Assembly: GCA_946555345.1 (NCBI GenBank)
Contig: CAMNSS010000026.1
Location: 1-34,881, forward strand
DNA length: 34,881 nucleotides
Direction of reading: 5' to 3'
Origin: an uncultured Eubacterium sp.
GTDB lineage: Bacteria > Bacillota > Clostridia > Peptostreptococcales > Anaerovoracaceae
Each line of letters begins with the position of its first letter. The first letter of the stretch is position 1. The position numbers were made by a program, and so were the translations under genes. Below are positions 4,171-27,950 of this stretch, one piece after another. Under the pieces are notes generated by a model. The model made no database searches. It saw only the letters and a list, made by a program, of their open reading frames with translations, and was not told the DNA's origin.

Positions 4171-4647
4171 CTAAACCGCCCTTAATTTCTTTTCCATGAT
4201 TTCATAGACCAGCTTCACATCATTTTCCAGCTCGTAAATCCCATGCCCTGCCGTTTTGTACCCCCTATGCTCATAAAAACGCACAGCGGGAAGCGAAGCG
4301 TCCAGGACAGCGGTATCGTGCATTTTTGCAATTCCAGCCTCCAGGCAATCCATAATCTGCGAGCCGCAGCCTTTGTTCTGGCAAGCGGGCAGCACATATA
4401 CCCCTGTGATATGATTGCCGTCAAAACAGCCTGTCCCGATAACCGCACCGCCCTCCAGCAATACGCCCATGTTCCCGGACGCTATACCGTCCAGAATATG
4501 CGCCTTGCTGTGATGCCGGCAAAAGAAATCTGCCACCTCTTGCGGATAGTATTTCGGATATACCGTTCTGATCGCAGTATGCAAAACATTGTGAATCGCA
4601 TCTGCCATTTCGGGGGTTGCTGTTATATATTTCATGAGCGTCCTCAT
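4171..4647 (-). CDS. GNAT family N-acetyltransferase
   Basis: A 158-residue acetyltransferase. The acetyl-CoA-binding motif is seen as GVYVLPACQNKGCGSQIMDCLE (Q-N-K-G-C-G-S in place of the commoner Q/R-x-x-G-x-G/A), followed by ASLPAVRFYEHRGYKTAG, the usual last strand-helix pair. The start codon overlaps the stop codon of the upstream restriction endonuclease gene in an ATGA arrangement, which points to translational coupling. An alternative ATG four codons in, with GAGGACG before it, cannot be excluded. Being coupled to a restriction gene is unusual for an acetyltransferase and may reflect chance gene packing rather than a shared role. The substrate is unknown. Confidence 0.85.
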   Translation of the reverse strand: MRTLMKYITATPEMADAIHNVLHTAIRTVYPKYYPQEVADFFCRHHSKAHILDGIASGNMGVLLEGGAVIGTGCFDGNHITGVYVLPACQNKGCGSQIMDCLEAGIAKMHDTAVLDASLPAVRFYEHRGYKTAGHGIYELENDVKLVYEIMEKKLRAV

Positions 4648-5369
4648 TTTTTATAAGTCCCTTCAATATCTGCCCAACGGAGGATGTCCAACCTTTCTCC
4701 ATAATGTTCTTCATAGCTATCAAGGAATTGCCGCTTCCACGAGGCCGCCGAATTATGCGTTTTAGGGTTTTGATATACAGCTTCTTCAATCGCCGAAACA
4801 AAATCCTCCATCGTGCTGAACATAGGATAATTACCACGTTGCTCGCTATACCATACCCCTGGACGAATTTTATGTACGACATTCTGTTTTACTTGCAGAT
4901 TAATCGGCCAATTCCTCATGCGGCGTGTGATCTGCCATACTTTTTTGAGCCAAAGTTCTTTAATCGTCACGATACCGCTATCGCTCATGTCATAACCAAA
5001 GATCAAATAATCCACATACAGCATATAAGGCTTTTCAATGATTTCCTCTTCATACATCCTGAAATCAGCAATGTCAAAGCCCGGTGAAGCGCTTCTGTTA
5101 AAGGTCTTCACTTCCAGCAAGTCCTTCGTTAAATCATCGGGGTTCAAAAAGAAATCCGGCGGCATTTGCGTATTTCCACTTGGAGCATACGCAATTCCCC
5201 TTTTATCAAACCATCCTTGCAGCCACTCTTGTATGATATTTCCCACAACATCCTTTTGGCGTACTATGATATCAACATCCCCAAGGAAAAATTTTATTTG
5301 CCCTTGGAGTTCCAGGATTTTTTCTTCGTTAATCAGCTTATCATAAACCTCTTGGCTCGTAAGCCTCAT
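4644..5369 (-). CDS. Type II restriction endonuclease, NgoBV-like
   Basis: A 241-residue protein. The frame opens at 5381, but that ATG is itself part of the ribosome site for the second ATG (GGAGGATAAT then ATG at 5369), and the second start gives MRLTSQEVYDKL, which resembles the start of the NgoBV family as I remember it. A PD-(D/E)xK nuclease centre is visible: Pro71-Asp72, then Glu86-Val-Lys88 in LLEVKTFN. The conserved ADYLIFGYDM stretch follows. NgoBV cuts GGNNCC; the specificity here is inferred only from family resemblance. It lies 65 bases downstream of the cytosine methyltransferase, the normal pairing, and its stop overlaps the acetyltransferase start. The gene looks intact although the methyltransferase is frameshifted. 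Confidence 0.75.
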   Translation of the reverse strand: MRLTSQEVYDKLINEEKILELQGQIKFFLGDVDIIVRQKDVVGNIIQEWLQGWFDKRGIAYAPSGNTQMPPDFFLNPDDLTKDLLEVKTFNRSASPGFDIADFRMYEEEIIEKPYMLYVDYLIFGYDMSDSGIVTIKELWLKKVWQITRRMRNWPINLQVKQNVVHKIRPGVWYSEQRGNYPMFSTMEDFVSAIEEAVYQNPKTHNSAASWKRQFLDSYEEHYGERLDILRWADIEGTYKK

Positions 5370-5434
5370 ATTATCCTCCATTCTGCTGCTGACGCCGGCG
5401 GCACAAATCGTGATGAAAAATCTTATTTTTCACA

Positions 5435-6720
5435 CTATCCCTCCTTGCAATATAACTCAAGCACACGGGCGGAAACCGCTGCAATCACAGGCACAACGAC
5501 CGTATTCCCCAACAAATCATAACCCAAGCTTTTTTCGATATCCAGCTTGTAATCATCAGGATATCCGAATAGCCGCAATCCTTCCCTTAATGACAAAGTC
5601 CGCAGTCCGTCGCCATCTGTAACGTATAAGCGCTGCATATCCATTGCGACAAGCGTCGGCGCAATATCCTTCGCACTCATAATTTTACTGATTTCAAAGG
5701 ACATTTTGCCTGCAACGATATTATATCCTTTTGGCAATTCCGGATCGGGTTCTCGGCGTTTGCCGGCCTTTTTCTTCGGATGCTCATAGCGAAGGTATTT
5801 TTTCTGGACAAGGTCATTTAACAGTTCTTCAAGCTTCGGATGATCAAAAAAAGTCCTTATTTGGCCGATCGTTAACGGCATTCCATCCATCCAGTCAATG
5901 CCATACTCATCTGCCCATTTCTTTTTTCGACGTTCTTTCAGCATCATATTTAGCAAATCCCGCTGCGGTTTGCTGACGAAACCTTTCATTTCAATATCCC
6001 AGCTATGGATGTTGTTTTCTCCGCCCCGTTTATCCTTGAGCGATTTTCCTTCTAGTTCTTCAATTGGATAATGCGCCAATAGATTATCAATAAATTGGCT
6101 ATGTTCTACTGGCAATCCTTTTTCGAGGATATCACTTAAAACGCTTGTTGTATGCTTAAACTTTGAAAGATCAGGATATTCCCGTAACGTTCCTACAATA
6201 TATATTCTTTTTCTTTCCTGTGGTATGCCAAAAAACTTCGCATTTAATACGTCCCAGGAAACCTTATACCCCAAGTCTTTTAAATGTGCTAAAATCGTTT
6301 TAAGCGTCCTTCCAATTTTATCCTTTGCATTTTCCTTATCATGCGTTACAAGACCCTCAACATTTTCCAATACGAACCCATACGGCCTCTTTTCCTTCAG
6401 GATTCGTTCGACATCAAAAAAAGCGTACCCCTTGTGTCGGCAAATCCCAGCCTTTTGCCTGCGGAGGAAAAAGCCTGGCACGGAAATCCCCCTAATAAAA
6501 AATCAAAGTCAGGAATATCCTTGGCTTCAATTTGTGTAATATCTCCGTGAATTTCCTCATCGGGATGATTTTGCTTCAAAACCTCAACAGCGTGAGGCTT
6601 AATTTCTGAGGTAAAAACACATTCAGAAGGATAGCCTTTTTGGCTGCAAGCAAGCTCAAAGCCTTTGCGAGTACCGCCCATTCCAGCAAAAAGGTCAATA
6701 AATCTAATGTGCTTATCCAT
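5435..6720 (-). pseudogene. DNA (cytosine-5) methyltransferase, interrupted by a one-base frameshift in a T7 run
   Basis: Two overlapping minus-strand frames make one C5 methyltransferase of about 430 residues. The first (6720-6397) carries motif I (DLFAGMGGTRKGFE) and motif IV with the catalytic Cys (GGFPCQAFSSAG). The second (to 5435) carries ENVEGL (motif VI), QERKRIYIVG (VIII), LREGLRLFGYPDDY (IX) and LLGNTVVVPVI (X), with a target-recognition region between VIII and IX. The frames join at a run of seven A on the plus strand (6416-6422), that is T7 in the coding strand; an eighth T would give TRGTLFFDVERIL and restore one reading frame. All motifs are intact, so this is a recent mutation, a phase-variable gene, slippage-rescued expression or a sequencing error. 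It is the partner of the NgoBV-like nuclease. Confidence 0.85.
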
Positions 6721-11302: not shown

Positions 11303-11420
11303 CACTCTATTTCCGCCAAAAATTTACATCAAAAACTTTCTGCTCGCTCTGCTTTCGCCCAAATGTTCTATCAAAATCTTCCATTCACTTTGCTTTCGCC
11401 TAAAACTTACCGCCAAATTT
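11303..11420. repeat. Three degenerate 41-43 bp units at the 3' end of guaB
   Basis: Units centred on TTTCGCC(C/T)AAA begin at 11310, 11353 and 11394, spaced 43 and 41 bases; similarity continues into ATTTACATC / GTTCTATC / CTTACCGCC. The last unit reaches the guaB stop codon. Confidence 0.5.
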
Positions 11421-12927
11421 ACCGGTTCGCCGTTCCCGTCGTATCCCTTAAAATAACGTCGTGCGCACCGCCTTCGACGATGCTCGTAGCCGATACGACC
11501 GTCAGCTTCGCATTCTTTTGCAAATCAGGAATCGTCAGGACGCCACAGTTACACATCGTCGATTTCACCTTCTGCAACGACTGCCGCACGTTATCGCTGA
11601 GCGGTCCTGCATACGGGACATAGGAATCCACGCCCTCCTCGAACGAAAGCTTGCTATCGCCGCCCATGTCGTAACGCTGCCAGTTTCTCGCCCGGTTCGA
11701 TCCCTCGCCCCAATATTCCTTCACATAGCTACCGTTAATCGTCAATTTCGCCGTCGGGGACTCGTCAAAACGGGAAAAATACCTTCCCAGCATCATGAAA
11801 TCCGCCCCCATTGCCAGAGCCAAAGTCATGTGGTAATCATACACAATGCCGCCGTCGGAGCAAATCGGTACATAAATGCCCGTCCGCTCGAAATATTCAT
11901 CCCTTGCCTTAGCGACCTCGATCACAGCCGTTGCCTGCCCGCGCCCGATACCCTTCTGTTCCCTGGTAATGCAGATCGAACCGCCGCCGATTCCTACCTT
12001 GACGAAATCCGCTCCAGCTTCCGCTAAATAATAGAATCCCTCTTTATCAACGACATTCCCTGCGCCAATCTTCACGCTGTCGCCATACCTTTCACGGACA
12101 AAATCGAGCGTCAGCTTCTGCCACTCGCTAAAACCTTCGGAGGAATCGATGCAAAGCACGTCCGCCCCAGCTTCCACAAGGGCTGGGATTCTTTCGGCAT
12201 AATCCCTCGTATTGACGCCTGCACCGACCATATACCGCTTATGCTCGTCCAAAAGCTCATCGGGATATGCTTTGTGGGTATCATAATCCTTGCGGAAAAC
12301 AAAGTATGCCAGCCGCTGGTCTTTTCCGATGATTGGCAAAGAGTTCAGTTTATTCTCCCACAGAATGTCGTTGGCTTCCGAAAGCGAAACGCCTTCCTCG
12401 GCATAGATGAGCTTTTCGAAAGGAGTCATAAAATTGCACACTTTTTCATCGAGAGGCGTTCTGCTGATCCTGTAATCCCTGCTGGTGACGAGGCCTACCA
12501 TTTTCCCTTCGGCCGTCCCGTCCTCCGTAACCGCCGTAGTGGAATGCCCCGTCTTTTCCTTGAGCGCCAGTAAATCAGCCAAGGTCTGGTCCGGCCTGAT
12601 ATTGGCGTCGCTCGTCACAAATCCGGCCTTATGCGATTTCACTTTTTTGACCATTTCCACTTGTTTTTCGATGGTCTGGGAGCCGAATATGAATGAAATC
12701 CCGCCCTCCTTTGCCAAAGCAATCGCCAGCCTGTCCCCGGAAACGGCCTGCATGATCGCAGATACCATAGGGATATTCATCTGTAACGCTGGTTCTTCGC
12801 CTTTCTTGAATTTTACGACCGGGGTCTTGAGCGAAACATTGTCCACCCTGCATTCTGTGGAAGAATAGCCCGGTACGAGTAAGTATTCGTTGAATGTTCT
12901 CGATGGTTCGTCAAAAATATGTGCCAT
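11419..12927 (-). CDS. guaB: IMP dehydrogenase of the Tritrichomonas-like type
   Basis: A 502-residue enzyme that oxidises IMP to XMP with NAD, the committed step to GMP. The frame opens at 13020, but the ATG at 12927 follows AGGAGGAAAAT and begins [20 protein letters not shown], the right start. The catalytic loop is [20 protein letters not shown] with Cys319, and the flap is [14 protein letters not shown] with Arg418-Tyr419. A CBS-pair insertion occupies roughly residues 95-220. The loop and flap wording and the residue numbers match my memory of the T. foetus enzyme and differ from the common bacterial GPGSICTTR type. Together with guaA and purC it makes a purine cluster, although each gene is transcribed separately. 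No clear promoter was found in the upstream 450 bases. Confidence 0.95.
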
Positions 12928-13378
12928 ATTTTCCTCCTGCTCCTCTTTTGTTTTTTCTCTTTCGCTTTCTATGATTGTTCCGTTCCAGTTGTCATGCGCC
13001 TTGCTTTGCTTGCTGAACATTGCGCTTGCGCCACCCTGAAACTGATTTGCGTTGGACTAACCGTGCCTTGATTGTGCAAACGCACCGGCCGCCAAAGCCC
13101 TCATCTTTGCCTCATCTGCATACAAGAAATTTATTTCCTGCCGCCTTCAGTTCATTCATATGCTGAACTTCTTGCCGGGCAGGCCGGGCAATGCATCCGC
13201 TCACCGCCCGCATTTGCTTGCCAGCAAGACGGCTTGCACAAATTCACGCCTGCCCGCCGAACGCCTTGTCCACAGCCCAGGCGGTCTTTCCGCCCCATCC
13301 GCCTGCCGCCAATTCCTGCAATTGTGATTCGGCGGCTGGTTTTATCCAGCCGCCGCCTATTTCCCTGTCCCGCAAGCC
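12928..13378. other. Non-coding stretch between guaB and the aspartokinase gene
   Basis: No credible coding frame. It contains a strong hairpin just past the aspartokinase stop, GGCGGCTGG (13331-13339) with CCAGCCGCC (13346-13354). No T run follows on the minus strand, so termination is uncertain. GC-rich partial repeats such as GCCGGGCAG/GCCGGGCAA lie near 13175-13195. Confidence 0.5.
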
Positions 13379-14695
13379 CTATGACACAAATGCGCCATAA
13401 ATAGCCTTAATTGCATTTTCAAAGTCCTTGTTTTCCACGCCGACGATGATATTCATCTCGCTCGAGCCCTGGTCGATCATCCTGATGTTGATTTTCGCCT
13501 CCGCCAGCGCCGCAAAAAGCTGTGCCGATACGCCGACCCGAGCGGACATACCGGACCCTACCGTCGCAATCAGCGCCATGTTTTCAAAGGTTTCCACATG
13601 GTCCGGCTTGAGCTGCCGCCTGATCTCCTCCGTAATCTCATCGAGCTTGCCATCGATGGCTTCATTTTCCAGCACCACTGAAATGGTATCGATGCCGCTC
13701 GGCATATGCTCAATCGCCACGCCGTTATCCTCCAGGATGCCTGCGAGCTTCCTGATAAACCCTCTTTCGTAGCTGAGCCCGTTTTTGGAGATTGCAATAA
13801 CGGTAAAATCCTTGCTGCCTGCAATGCCTGAAATAATCCTGCCATCCTGCTGCTTGCCGGGTTCTGCCGTGATCATCGTCCCTGGGTCTTCCGGTTTGTT
13901 GGTATTCCTGATATTGATCGGGATGTTCGCCACCCTCGCCGGATAGATCGCATCCTCGTGCAACACGGACGCACCCATATAGGAAAGCTCCCGCAGCTCT
14001 TTATATGAAATCGTGCTGATCGGCTTCGGATTTTTGACAATCCGCGGGTCTGCCATCAGAAAGCCCGATACGTCGGTCCAGTTTTCATACACATCGGCTT
14101 CCACCGCCCGCGCAATCAGCGCCCCCGTGATATCCGAGCCGCCCCGGGAGAACGTTTTCACGCTGCCGTCTATCTTTGCGCCGTAAAACCCCGGCACGAC
14201 CGCCTTCTCGTGCTTTGCAAGCTCTTTCTTAATCGCAGTATTGGTCAGGTCCTCCATGAAGCGGCCTTTCTCATCGAACTTGACCATCGCCGCCGCATCC
14301 ACGAAATCATATCCGAGGTATGAGGCGATGAGCTGTGCGTTCAAGTATTCCCCCCGGCTGGCAACGTAGTCGGCGGATGCACCAGCCTCCAGGTTTTTCT
14401 TGATCTCATCAAATTCCTTTTTCAGGTTGATTTCGGCGGACAGATTCGCATCCACGGCCATGAACCTGTCGTAAATCACCTGAAAAATCTGCTCATAGGG
14501 AAGCTTGTGTTCGATATGCGTCTTGCAAAGGTACAGGAGGTCCGTCACCTTGCTGTCCCCGCCGAACCGCTTGCCGGGCGCAGAAACCACCACATAGCGG
14601 ATGGTTTCATCGCCCTCGACAATATTTTTGATTTTTTTAATTTGCAGCGCATCCGCTACGGATGAACCGCCAAATTTCGCTACTTTGAGTCCCAT
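13379..14695 (-). CDS. lysC: Aspartate kinase (aspartokinase)
   Basis: A 438-residue enzyme that phosphorylates aspartate, the first step to lysine, threonine and methionine. The kinase motif KFGGSSVA is at residues 7-14 and the substrate loop is seen as TFSRGGSDITGALIA. Two ACT domains occupy roughly residues 300-438 (VIAISKNGLSYERGF and ALIATVGSGMSARVG), so feedback control by an amino acid is expected. The length fits the monofunctional YclM/LysC long type. The ATG at 14695 directly follows the metK stop codon with no gap and has AGGAAGGAA inside the end of metK, so it is translated from the metK transcript and falls under the SAM riboswitch. A possible terminator hairpin lies 25-48 bases past the stop. 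Confidence 0.95.
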   Translation of the reverse strand: MGLKVAKFGGSSVADALQIKKIKNIVEGDETIRYVVVSAPGKRFGGDSKVTDLLYLCKTHIEHKLPYEQIFQVIYDRFMAVDANLSAEINLKKEFDEIKKNLEAGASADYVASRGEYLNAQLIASYLGYDFVDAAAMVKFDEKGRFMEDLTNTAIKKELAKHEKAVVPGFYGAKIDGSVKTFSRGGSDITGALIARAVEADVYENWTDVSGFLMADPRIVKNPKPISTISYKELRELSYMGASVLHEDAIYPARVANIPINIRNTNKPEDPGTMITAEPGKQQDGRIISGIAGSKDFTVIAISKNGLSYERGFIRKLAGILEDNGVAIEHMPSGIDTISVVLENEAIDGKLDEITEEIRRQLKPDHVETFENMALIATVGSGMSARVGVSAQLFAALAEAKINIRMIDQGSSEMNIIVGVENKDFENAIKAIYGAFVS

Positions 14696-15883
14696 TTATA
14701 TTTCCTTCCTAAGATCGTCAGCCTTGTCGGTCTTTTCCCACGGCAAGTCGATATCAGTCCTGCCGAAATGCCCGTAAGCTGCGACCTGCCTGTAGATCGG
14801 CTTTCGCAGCCCCAGGTTTTTAATGATCGCCGCCGGCCTTAAATCAAAATGCTTCTTCACGATTTCCGCCAATTTTTCATCAGATACCTTGCCCGTTCCA
14901 AAGGAATCTACCAGCACCGATACAGGCTTGGCAACGCCGATCGCATAAGCCAGCTCGATTTCGCACTTATCCGCAAGCCCCGCCGCAACGATGTTCTTCG
15001 CTACGTACCTTGCCGCATAAGCTGCGGAACGGTCCACCTTCGTAGGGTCTTTGCCGCTGAATGCACCGCCGCCGTGACGCGCATATCCGCCATAAGTATC
15101 GACGATGATCTTTCTTCCCGTCAGCCCGGAATCCCCGTGCGGCCCGCCGATGACGAACCTGCCTGTCGGGTTGATGAAGTATTTCGTATCCGCATCTAGG
15201 AGTGAAGCGTCCACGATCGGTTTTACGACGTGTTCGATCAAATCTTTCCTGATCTGGGAAAGCTCCACGTCAGGATCGTGCTGGGTGGAGATGACGATGG
15301 CATCGATCCGCTTTACCTTATCTCCGTCGTATTCTACCGTGACCTGCGTCTTTCCATCAGGCCTCAGGTATGTAAGCGTCCCGTTCTTTCTCACTTCGGT
15401 AAGCCTTCTTGCCAGCTTGTGCGCCAATGCGATCGGCATCGGCATCAGCTCCGGCGTTTCATTGCAGGCAAAGCCGAACATCATTCCCTGGTCGCCGGCG
15501 CCTGTCTCTTCCAGCGCATCCGCATCTTCCGCCAATGCGCCTTCCTTATATTCGAGCGCCTTGTCAACGCCCATCGCAATATCCGACGACTGTTCGTCGA
15601 TGGCGGTCAGAATTGCGCAGACATTCCCATCATAACCATATTCGCTCTTATCATATCCTATGTCACAAATAACGCTTCGTGCCAGCTTCTGGATATCGAT
15701 ATAACAGTTCGTGCTGATTTCCCCCATTACCATAGCATATCCCGTGTTCACCGTCGTCTCCGCCGCAACCCTTCCCATCGGGTCTTCGGCGAGGATCGCA
15801 TCTACGATCGCATCCGAAATCTGGTCGCAGATTTTGTCTGGATGCCCTTCCGTCACGGATTCTGATGTGAATAATTTTTTCAT
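14696..15883 (-). CDS. metK: S-adenosylmethionine synthetase
   Basis: A 395-residue enzyme that makes S-adenosylmethionine from methionine and ATP. It has the ATP-site start [19 protein letters not shown], the signature hexapeptide GAGDQG near residue 126, and the phosphate-binding [19 protein letters not shown]. The C-terminus ([19 protein letters not shown]) is complete. AAAGGAGAATACGAA precedes the ATG. It is the first gene of a two-gene transcript with aspartokinase behind a SAM-I riboswitch, so the enzyme's product should shut off its own transcription. Confidence 0.98.
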
Positions 15884-15918: not shown

Positions 15919-16081
15919 ACCTCTTTCCGACGGGGAAAGAGGTACAAATCACAGTTATCTTTCCTCATCTTTCAGAATAAAATATCCTGTAGGATTTAGC
16001 ACCTTCTGTGTCATGTCAAATGAATTTCACAAGGTTGCCGGGCTTCACAGGGCCTAGTCCCTCCACCACTCTTAATAAGGA
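15919..16081 (-). promoter_or_regulatory. SAM-I (S-box) riboswitch with terminator, controlling metK and lysC
   Basis: On the minus strand the leader reads CTTATTAAGAGTGGTGGAGG, GACTAGGCCCTGTGAAGCCC, GGCAACC, then AAGGTGCTAAATCC and GATGAGGAAAG. These are the conserved S-box blocks in order, with P1 formed by CCTTATT (about 16080) and GATGAGG (15962-15969). Downstream is an intrinsic terminator (ACCTCTTTCC with GGAAAGAGGT, 15919-15943, then TTTCTG). High S-adenosylmethionine should stabilise the aptamer and allow termination before metK. Confidence 0.96.
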
Positions 16082-26075: not shown

Positions 26076-27950
26076 TTATTGGATATATATCGTCACATAC
26101 CTTACGCCCCAACGCCTGCATTCCGCTTCGCTATCCATGTAAATGTCGATGGTGTTGCCTTTGATATTTCCGCCCGTATCCTCTGCGCGCCTTGCGCCAA
26201 CGCCTTCAATATACACGTTCGTTCCCAATGGAATCACGCTAGGATCGACTGCGATTTCGCCTACCCTGGCTCTCGTTCCCATTGCCGTCCTGCCTCCGCC
26301 CGTATAAGAGTACGCCTTTACGACCAGCTTCCGGCTGTAGGTTTTTCCGTTATAATCAATCCTGGTTCCTTTAGCAATTACCTCGTCCACCGCTGCCGTA
26401 ACGGATTGCCGGGCAATCTCCGTGCGGGATGCTTCCACGCCATCTATGTACGTCACTTCATAGGTAACTTGATCCTTGCCCTCCTGCCCTGGCGTCGCCA
26501 CCTCGGTCGTGCCTTCCCGCAGGGAGGAATCATTTTTGGTAACGGTTTTAAATGGAATCGCCTCTTCTACGACTTCCTGCTCCACCTCCACGCGCTGGAC
26601 AACGATATGAATGTCCTGCGTCATGAACGTATCAAGGGATGGCGTGACGATATCCCGCTCCCGCAATTTGACGCCAGCATCATCCAAGGCTTCTTGCACG
26701 GTATTGTCCAGTGTTTTATATTTTTTCGTCTTGCCATCTGCGGTAACTTTGAAATCGGTCGCATGATCGATTTCAAGTTTAATCCCGTCGTATATGTATG
26801 TGGTCAATGGCAAGGAGATATAATCGTCCTCGCAAAAAGCAATCTTTTCATCCTGCAAAAATTCTTCGACGGTGTATTCTTTCGTGGTAAAGCTAAATTC
26901 TTTATCGTTTATCGTCGCATAAACTTCCCTCGGTATCATCGTGGTGTAAATCAATGTAACTGCGAGGAGAATTGCAAAAGCGGCGGCAATTCCTGAACAC
27001 CAGCCGTAACGTCGGCACAGTGCAAGAAATTTTTCCTTAATTTGAAACGGTGGTTTTTGTATTGCGGAGAGACCGGCCGCAGGCGATGCGGCTGTTTCAG
27101 GCAGTTGTTCCGATTCCGAAGAGCCATCCGTTTCTTGCGGGGCATCAGCGGCTGATTTTAATACAGTCCCAGATTCCGTGCTCCCATTCGGCTCGGCTTC
27201 ACCCTCTGTTTTCATTTCTGAACGCACACCCGTTTCAGGCGGTTGTTCCGATTCCAAAGAGCCGTCCGTTTCTTGCGGGGCATCGGCGGCTGATTTTAAT
27301 ACAGTCCCAGATTCCGTACTCCCATTCGGCTCGGATGCATCCTCTGTTTTCGCTTCTGAACGCACATCCGTTTCGTGCGGTTGGTCCGATTCCAAAGAGC
27401 CGTCCGTTTCTTGCGAGGCATCAGCGGCTGATTTTAATACAGTCCCAGATTCCGTGCTCCCATTCGGCTCGGCTTCACCCTCTGTTTTCATTTCTGAACG
27501 CACACCCGTTTCAGGCGGTTGTTCCGATTCCAAAGAGCCGTCCGTTTCTTGCGGGGCATCGGAATCCGCCTGCCCTGCATTGATTTCTGGGGGCGTATCA
27601 GAATCTGGTTGGGCATCATCTGTTGAAGCCTCCGCCGCAAGCGGCGTTTCGGCAAGCGTATCGGAATCCGAACGCTGATCCGGTTTCGGGGATGCAGACG
27701 AAGCGGGCTGTTCGCTTTCCCCTGAAGATGCATCCGCTACACGCTCAAATTCTATGCCAAGCTTCGCGGCAAGCGGCTCTCTCTCCGAATCCCCACCCAT
27801 TTCGGCAGTCTTCGTTGCTTCGGAATGCAGTCCGGACGCCGAACCCGCATCCGCTACGACCTGTTCCGCTTCGCTTTCCAAGACCTGCTTCACATCCACG
27901 GACTTACCGCTGCTGCCTGAACCGAATATATTTTTGATATCTATCCTCAT
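26076..27950 (-). CDS. DUF348-G5-3D domain cell-wall protein with repetitive cytoplasmic N-terminus
   Basis: A 624-residue protein anchored by one membrane helix (about residues 316-339, IAAAFAILLAVTLIYTTMI). Outside are two DUF348 domains (about 341-450), a G5 domain (about 453-530) and a C-terminal 3D domain (541-624) with the three conserved Asp in AVDPSVIPLGT, EDTGG and TIDIYMDS. This is the YabE/Rpf-like layout of proteins that cut peptidoglycan as lytic transglycosylases. The start is unusual: residues 1-300 lie on the cytoplasmic side and are acidic and disordered, with a 46-residue unit (starting DAPQETDGSLESEQPPETGV) three times at 131-268 plus a partial fourth. AGGAG lies six bases before the ATG. 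It has a strong promoter and its own terminator. Confidence 0.92.
   Translation of the reverse strand: MRIDIKNIFGSGSSGKSVDVKQVLESEAEQVVADAGSASGLHSEATKTAEMGGDSEREPLAAKLGIEFERVADASSGESEQPASSASPKPDQRSDSDTLAETPLAAEASTDDAQPDSDTPPEINAGQADSDAPQETDGSLESEQPPETGVRSEMKTEGEAEPNGSTESGTVLKSAADASQETDGSLESDQPHETDVRSEAKTEDASEPNGSTESGTVLKSAADAPQETDGSLESEQPPETGVRSEMKTEGEAEPNGSTESGTVLKSAADAPQETDGSSESEQLPETAASPAAGLSAIQKPPFQIKEKFLALCRRYGWCSGIAAAFAILLAVTLIYTTMIPREVYATINDKEFSFTTKEYTVEEFLQDEKIAFCEDDYISLPLTTYIYDGIKLEIDHATDFKVTADGKTKKYKTLDNTVQEALDDAGVKLRERDIVTPSLDTFMTQDIHIVVQRVEVEQEVVEEAIPFKTVTKNDSSLREGTTEVATPGQEGKDQVTYEVTYIDGVEASRTEIARQSVTAAVDEVIAKGTRIDYNGKTYSRKLVVKAYSYTGGGRTAMGTRARVGEIAVDPSVIPLGTNVYIEGVGARRAEDTGGNIKGNTIDIYMDSEAECRRWGVRYVTIYIQ
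27147..27560 (-). repeat. Coding tandem repeat, 3 x 138 bp
   Basis: Three 138-base units in frame; the anchor GCTGATTTTAATACAGTCCC recurs at 27151, 27289 and 27427. Units 1 and 3 give identical protein; unit 2 differs at about ten residues. A shortened fourth unit lies at 27069-27146. Silent differences are few, so the expansion is recent. Confidence 0.9.

Follow-up and report, generated by a model that had tools for sequence, protein, structure and literature searches.

The IMP dehydrogenase (IMPDH) of the cattle parasite Tritrichomonas foetus serves widely as a model in studies of IMPDH mechanism and in drug design. Its type already has a curated family, NCBIfam NF005493 (PRK07107 IMP dehydrogenase), and a solved bacterial structure, Lmo0132 (PDB 8ebc), which we take from its locus-tag prefix to be a Listeria protein. 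The roles of Cys319, Thr321, Arg418, Tyr419 and Glu431 are known from studies of the T. foetus enzyme, as set out in PMC2525682, where an IMPDH tree was built with T. foetus as query. PMC4342496 describes Arg241 and Trp269 as sandwiching the NAD+ adenosine in T. foetus, with a quite different placement in a bacterial enzyme, and it groups this T. foetus site with the eukaryotic NAD-binding mode. According to the same paper, inhibitors selective for the Cryptosporidium and many bacterial IMPDHs require an Ala/Tyr pair. Here, a guaB gene of the T. foetus type was analyzed in a 34,881-nucleotide stretch of DNA (the window) from an uncultured Eubacterium sp.

The gene encodes 502 residues and starts at the ATG at 12927, 5 bases downstream of a Shine-Dalgarno sequence (Table 1). 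The span given by the first-pass annotation was right in its coordinates; the gene itself runs on the minus strand, from 12927 to 11419, and the plus strand of the same interval contains several stops. A longer in-frame open reading frame begins at 13020, but homology to known enzymes begins at 12927. Translation and alignment placed the catalytic loop with Cys319 and the flap with Arg418-Tyr419 where that annotation had seen them. The Pfam CBS model gave 26.1 bits against a cut-off of 24, with its best stretch at residues 110-151.

Table 1. Positions of the T. foetus-type guaB gene, its features and other loci in the window
Feature	Position	Strand	Basis
guaB of T. foetus type, IMP dehydrogenase, 502 residues + stop	11419..12927	-	translation; NF005493 962 bits; 69% to PDB 1ak5, gap-free
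Shine-Dalgarno AGGAGG	12933..12938	-	read from sequence
Bateman (two CBS) domain, about residues 108-214, limits approximate	12286..12606	-	alignment; Pfam CBS
Arg241, adenosine-site residue in T. foetus enzyme	12205..12207	-	alignment; role from PMC4342496
Trp269, adenosine-site residue in T. foetus enzyme	12121..12123	-	alignment; role from PMC4342496
Catalytic loop, residues 312-331, with Cys319 (11973-11971) and Thr321	11935..11994	-	translation, alignment
Flap, residues 407-420, with Arg418-Tyr419 (11676-11671)	11668..11709	-	translation, alignment
GmrSD_N protein, 608 residues	987..2813	-	partial similarity to HEC-05, 105.8 bits
NgoBV-type restriction enzyme and adjoining C5 DNA methyltransferase	4644..6720	-	restriction enzyme: PF09564, 440 bits
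C5 methyltransferase, rest	5435..6481	-	
C5 methyltransferase, first part with PCQ motif	6397..6720	-	motif by eye
GuaA-like protein, 334 residues	7352..8356	-	NF000848 matched from 190
lysC	13379..14695		
metK	14696..15883		
SAM riboswitch	15962..16081	-	RF00162, 88.7 bits
Protein of 624 residues with DUF348, G5 and 3D domains	26076..27950	-	

Elsewhere in the window, the two parts of the C5 DNA methyltransferase lie in different frames, and the split is a frameshift or sequencing error. The GmrSD_N protein is partially similar to candidate defence proteins. The 624-residue protein carries its three domain types in the C-terminal part and, by eye, near-identical Ser/Glu/Asp/Pro-rich repeats in the N-terminal half.

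A PDB search was used to find the closest known enzymes. The best match was 1ak5 (503 residues), with 810 bits and E = 5.7e-243 in an alignment that is gap-free over 1ak5 residues 1 to 496 and 69.3% identical over 495 residues; these values exclude chance similarity. The further matches were Lmo0132 at 679 bits, the best remaining enzyme at 266 bits and IMPDH I 1jcn, presumably the human enzyme, at 225 bits. 1ak5 is the T. foetus enzyme, because 1MEW, named TfIMPDH in PMC4342496, has the same sequence in the PDB search. The likeness that the first-pass annotation had proposed was borne out, with Cys319, Arg418 and Tyr419 at identical numbers and lengths of 502 and 503 residues.

The NCBIfam search gave 962 bits for NF005493 (cut-off 585; profile 1-498 of 502). 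The protein scored 350.5 bits with TIGR01302, the general IMPDH model that covers ordinary GuaB, which is below the cut-off of 481.5. A control ordinary GuaB showed the opposite pattern, with 661.5 bits for TIGR01302 and 347 bits for NF005493. The GMP reductase and GuaB1 models listed in this search all scored below cut-off for the window's protein. These results identify the gene as an ordinary member of a curated, already known bacterial family; the resemblance to T. foetus is real, and the gene is less special than had been implied.

The loop, the flap and the catalytic and adenosine-site residues are common to the window's enzyme and the T. foetus IMPDH (PDB 1ak5, 1lrt, 1pvn). The two differ in host, which is eukaryotic for T. 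foetus, and in flap residue 411, which is Ser in T. foetus and Asn in the window's enzyme; other bacterial members, at 74%, come closer to the T. foetus enzyme than the window's does. Both matched stretches of Lmo0132 are gap-free against the window's protein, but the solved Lmo0132 chain is without the CBS part. An ordinary GuaB accompanies the T. foetus type in some Listeria genomes, whereas none was detected in the window's genome. Ordinary bacterial GuaB (TIGR01302) has the same Cys319, Thr321, Arg418, Tyr419 and Glu431 and differs in overall identity (~36%), in its GPGSICTTR-type loop, in Ala/Tyr at 263/460 and in the absence of Trp269.

Residues were counted in an alignment of 120 T. foetus-type bacterial rows and 23 ordinary GuaB rows, in T. 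foetus numbering. Cys319, Thr321, Arg418, Tyr419 and Glu431 were present in 120/120 T. foetus-type rows. The loop contrast with ordinary GPGSICTTR held across the alignment: position 315 is Gly in 119/120 T. foetus-type rows and Pro in 20/23 ordinary rows, and position 320 is Ile in 120/120 and Thr in 23/23, respectively. In the second CBS repeat, Phe211 occupies a position (120/120) that is Thr in all 23 ordinary rows, a change that may alter nucleotide control.

The distribution of the type was determined by profile and sequence searches. Among 299 genomes of the same phylum (the window's own included), 34 were over the NF005493 cut-off. Their scores were at least 651.8 bits, the value of a partial copy at a contig end, and full-length copies had at least 831.8 bits; the best match below cut-off reached 364. 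With at most four candidates scored per genome, one match was counted in 20 of the 34 genomes and more than one in 14. No control genome (0/14) was over the cut-off. The phylum of an Actinomycetota-labelled MAG gave 8 over-cut-off genomes in 100, the MAG itself included. A genome-contig scan ranked by T. foetus returned at least 80 loci at 69 to 74% identity among the matches listed; by name, nearly all are Bacillota (Listeria, Clostridia, Negativicutes), with one Actinomycetota label and one uncultured bacterium.

Plasmid records, some of which run to millions of bases, contained 12 matches at E 1e-100 or better. Identities to the window were 67.5% for Parabacteroides distasonis, 54.8% for Mycolicibacterium alvei and 50 to 52% for Streptomyces and Embleya. 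The NF005493 cut-off was passed by 6/6 non-Bacillota plasmid-record copies tested (Streptomyces, Embleya, Mycolicibacterium, Parabacteroides), with 610 to 959 bits. The Actinomycetota genes among these records, 50 to 55% identical to the window, lie at L167 3001-4503, L169 2998-4491, L170 995-2488 and L172 971-2497. One scan of viral contigs returned one weak relative (31%, residues 269-390) and no sign of phage carriage. In these searches the NF005493/PRK07107 family is seen mainly in Bacillota, and it is far from ordinary GuaB.

The neighborhood of the gene was compared across 110 loci, the window's copy (L096) included. lysC was found in L096 alone, purC in 8 loci (L096 included) and the GuaA ATPase part in 3, and metK in 0/110, many of the loci having short flanks. 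Because no neighborhood is conserved across the 110 loci, it is unusable as evidence. At Rfam gathering scores, the window contains no riboswitch for guaB and only the SAM riboswitch upstream of metK, which is followed by lysC.

No second IMPDH was detected in the genome that carries the gene (2.85 Mb, 36 contigs, 96.0% complete), where the one further PF00478 match scored 22.4 bits, or 26.6 bits together with its neighbors in frame. Because no other IMPDH was found, the gene is very probably the housekeeping guaB of this genome. Fourteen genomes, with completeness not given, were picked from the loci of the genome-contig scan. Ten have no other IMPDH, including Butyricicoccus, Intestinimonas, Sinanaerobacter, Listeria ilorinensis, two Phascolarctobacterium and a Clostridioides difficile record. 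Four also carry an ordinary IMPDH, namely Listeria immobilis, L. fleischmannii (where it consists of two overlapping matches on one contig), Clostridium sp. LS and Eisenbergiella tayi. These four, and the further matches of some kind in 14 of the 34 over-cut-off genomes, would fit a second, specialized IMPDH-like enzyme, such as a reductase, in place of a housekeeping GuaB. That explanation is very improbable given the single copy in the window's genome, the sub-threshold scores with the GMP reductase and GuaB1 models, and the presence of the Arg418-Tyr419 dyad, which is absent from GMP reductases according to PMC2525682.

As a housekeeping GuaB, the enzyme would use NAD+ to oxidize IMP to XMP en route to GMP, and would so catalyze the first reaction leading from IMP to GTP. 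Judging from the residues common to the studied T. foetus enzyme, Cys319 would attack IMP, the hydride would pass to NAD+, and the flap would then close. Arg418 (or Thr321-Glu431) would activate the water, and XMP would be released.

The window also encodes a GuaA-like protein without the glutaminase half. It probably arose by domain loss and may be a GMP synthase that depends on ammonia. Elsewhere, the same genome encodes a full-length GuaA (open frame 524). The guaA genes that adjoin guaB in L086, L094 and L041 keep the glutaminase part, although in L094 and L041 the gene extends past the end of the locus.

The relation to the parasite enzyme was examined from the T. foetus side. With the T. 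foetus sequence as PDB query, Lmo0132 (a 395-residue construct) scored 654 bits, ahead of the next enzyme at 256 and 1jcn at 230. T. foetus IMPDH thus matches the NF005493 family far better than it matches human IMPDH or the IMPDHs of other bacterial types, and a transfer from bacteria to the parasite lineage is the best reading. T. foetus was the sole parabasalid and sole eukaryotic sequence in all trees, and what is said here of eukaryotes rests on the PDB bit scores.

For the trees, rows at least 90% identical to a kept row were dropped, which reduced 112 bacterial loci to 77. These rows, the window and T. foetus formed the 79 T. foetus-type rows of the first tree, to which 8 ordinary GuaB were added. 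L096 (the window's locus row) and the fragment L136 were left out of all trees, and the long-branch row L135 was left out of tree 2, tree 3 and the identity means. L175 (the same gene as L079) and L179 were left out of tree 2, and tree 3 was a chosen set of 50 rows. In the first and the 50-row trees, a branch with 100/100 support united T. foetus with the T. foetus-type bacterial rows and separated them from ordinary GuaB. The window's gene fell with T. foetus at this support and not among ordinary GuaB, the grouping that the first-pass annotation had named as speaking against its proposal.

The position of T. foetus within the family was read under two roots. With the ordinary-GuaB root, T. 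foetus lay within a 67-row subgroup at 84/99 in the first tree; this root is weak because branches reach length 5 on both sides. With five actinobacterial rows as root, tree 2 placed T. foetus in a clade of 73 rows (100/99) that left out 12 more bacterial rows, in an analysis whose bootstrap had not settled. T. foetus stood at the base of this clade with no supported sister, and the other 72 rows forked at 82/71. The window's gene grouped with Sinanaerobacter and a genome of its own family (99/97). The 50-row tree, with both outgroups, set the actinobacterial rows beside Parabacteroides.

AU tests were applied to trees in which the bacterial rows form one clade without T. foetus. With the ordinary GuaB outgroup, this arrangement had p = 0.516, and the T. 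foetus-outside tree scored marginally above the unconstrained tree, by 0.22 log units; with the actinobacterial outgroup, p was 0.329. The 50-row set with both outgroups gave p = 0.518, where the T. foetus-outside tree again scored marginally higher, by 3.38 log units, and p = 0.458. T. foetus lying outside the bacterial rows is not rejected by any of the four tests, so it is the wide occurrence of the type among bacteria that speaks for the direction of transfer. Mean identity to the 106 inner bacterial rows was 70.9% for T. foetus and 67.4% for the 14 outer bacterial rows. Among outgroup-polarized columns, nesting is favored by 7 (8 counts, since one column counts under either outgroup), a basal position of T. 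foetus by 2, and a grouping of T. foetus with the outer rows by 1. Inner and outer rows were named after tree 2, so the identity and column checks are not independent of it.

A family of ancient standing in eukaryotes, which bacteria acquired from a parabasalid or a parabasalid ancestor, would agree with the root on the T. foetus branch that the AU tests allow. This direction is most unlikely in view of the over-cut-off copies in 34/299 genomes of the window's phylum, in 8/100 of the Actinomycetota-labelled MAG's phylum and in 6/6 Streptomyces, Embleya, Mycolicibacterium and Parabacteroides copies. Identity among bacterial members also falls to ~50% when inner or outer rows are compared with actinobacterial rows, as against the 70.9% of T. 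foetus to the inner rows. Since the type occurs widely in bacteria, is divergent there and lies far from other IMPDHs, a bacterial origin of the T. foetus gene is probable.

The first-pass annotation had the parasite, or an ancestor, taking the gene from gut Clostridia. The bacterial half of this idea agrees with the bit scores (654 against 256 and 230) and the 100/100 grouping; its clostridial half fares less well, with no supported sister and with Listeria, Negativicutes, Actinomycetota and Bacteroidota in the family too. In path length T. foetus lies closest to Clostridia and to genomes of the window's phylum, and its highest identities among the matches listed (74%) are to Butyricicoccus and a Clostridia MAG. 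Listeria ilorinensis is about as close, at 73.5%, and the ranking of nearest relatives comes from the at least 80 listed loci, with Bacteroidota sampled by one record. Forcing T. foetus together with the window's clade cost 10.03 log units (p-AU 0.351), neither rejected nor favored, and forcing it with Parabacteroides cost 24.32 (p-AU 0.162), not rejected either. Acquisition by the parabasalid lineage specifically from gut Clostridia is somewhat less likely than not on these data, and descent from a bacterium in general is the preferred reading.

Reviews may have mentioned a bacterial descent of the T. foetus enzyme. Among the papers listed in the literature searches, which cover the field in part and few subscription reviews, none was recognized as stating this; those consulted include PMC4053834, PMC12428144, PMC9462843, PMC6336804 and PMC3315515.

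The cofactor site and the inhibitor motif were compared in the same alignment. Trp269 is present in 120/120 T. foetus-type bacterial rows and 0/23 ordinary rows, and position 241 is Arg in 117/120 and Lys in 3/120 T. foetus-type rows. The Ala/Tyr motif was placed at T. foetus positions 263 and 460 through alignment with ordinary GuaB rather than with a Cryptosporidium sequence. Position 263 is Ser in 120/120 T. foetus-type rows and Ala in 22/23 ordinary rows, and position 460 is Asn (116/120) or Ser (4/120) in T. foetus-type rows and Tyr in 23/23 ordinary rows. The window's enzyme has Ser263 and Asn460, so the motif is absent. Five divergent actinobacterial members have Ser263 (5/5) and Ser460 (5/5), with Trp269 in 1/5 and Ile320 in 1/5. 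Lys310 and Glu431 were considered as marks of mycophenolic acid insensitivity and do not set the family apart, because both also occur in 23/23 ordinary rows.

The main family keeps Arg241/Trp269 and is without the Ala/Tyr motif, and from these residues it is expected to bind NAD+ as the T. foetus enzyme does and to respond little to Ala/Tyr-dependent inhibitors. The different inhibitor response suspected in the first-pass annotation is thus supported as a prediction from Ser263 and Asn/Ser460, with the motif as given in PMC4342496. We lean, by a narrow measure, toward a wider reading in which the Arg241/Trp269 site belongs natively to a broad family of bacterial IMPDHs. On that reading, the IMPDH on which many gut Bacillota rely would bind NAD+ in T. 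foetus style, without the inhibitor motif and with the conserved Thr of the second CBS repeat lost, and the bacterial/eukaryotic cofactor split would not follow the tree of life.

Taken jointly, it is highly probable that the window encodes the housekeeping GuaB of a distinct family, NF005493, that the T. foetus gene most likely came from a bacterium, and that this enzyme would respond poorly to bacteria-selective inhibitors. The absent motif suggests that these bacteria would be spared by compounds directed against ordinary bacterial IMPDH. If the T. foetus enzyme is of bacterial descent, its structures and kinetics would be direct templates for a group of gut bacteria, which would include one Clostridioides difficile record in which the T. 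foetus type is the only IMPDH found. Conclusions drawn from T. foetus about eukaryotic enzymes would then need care. The gene also adds a plausible instance of a parasite lineage acquiring a gene from bacteria. It is of interest because a model parasite enzyme is likely bacterial in origin, and because of the inhibitor profile that is predicted.
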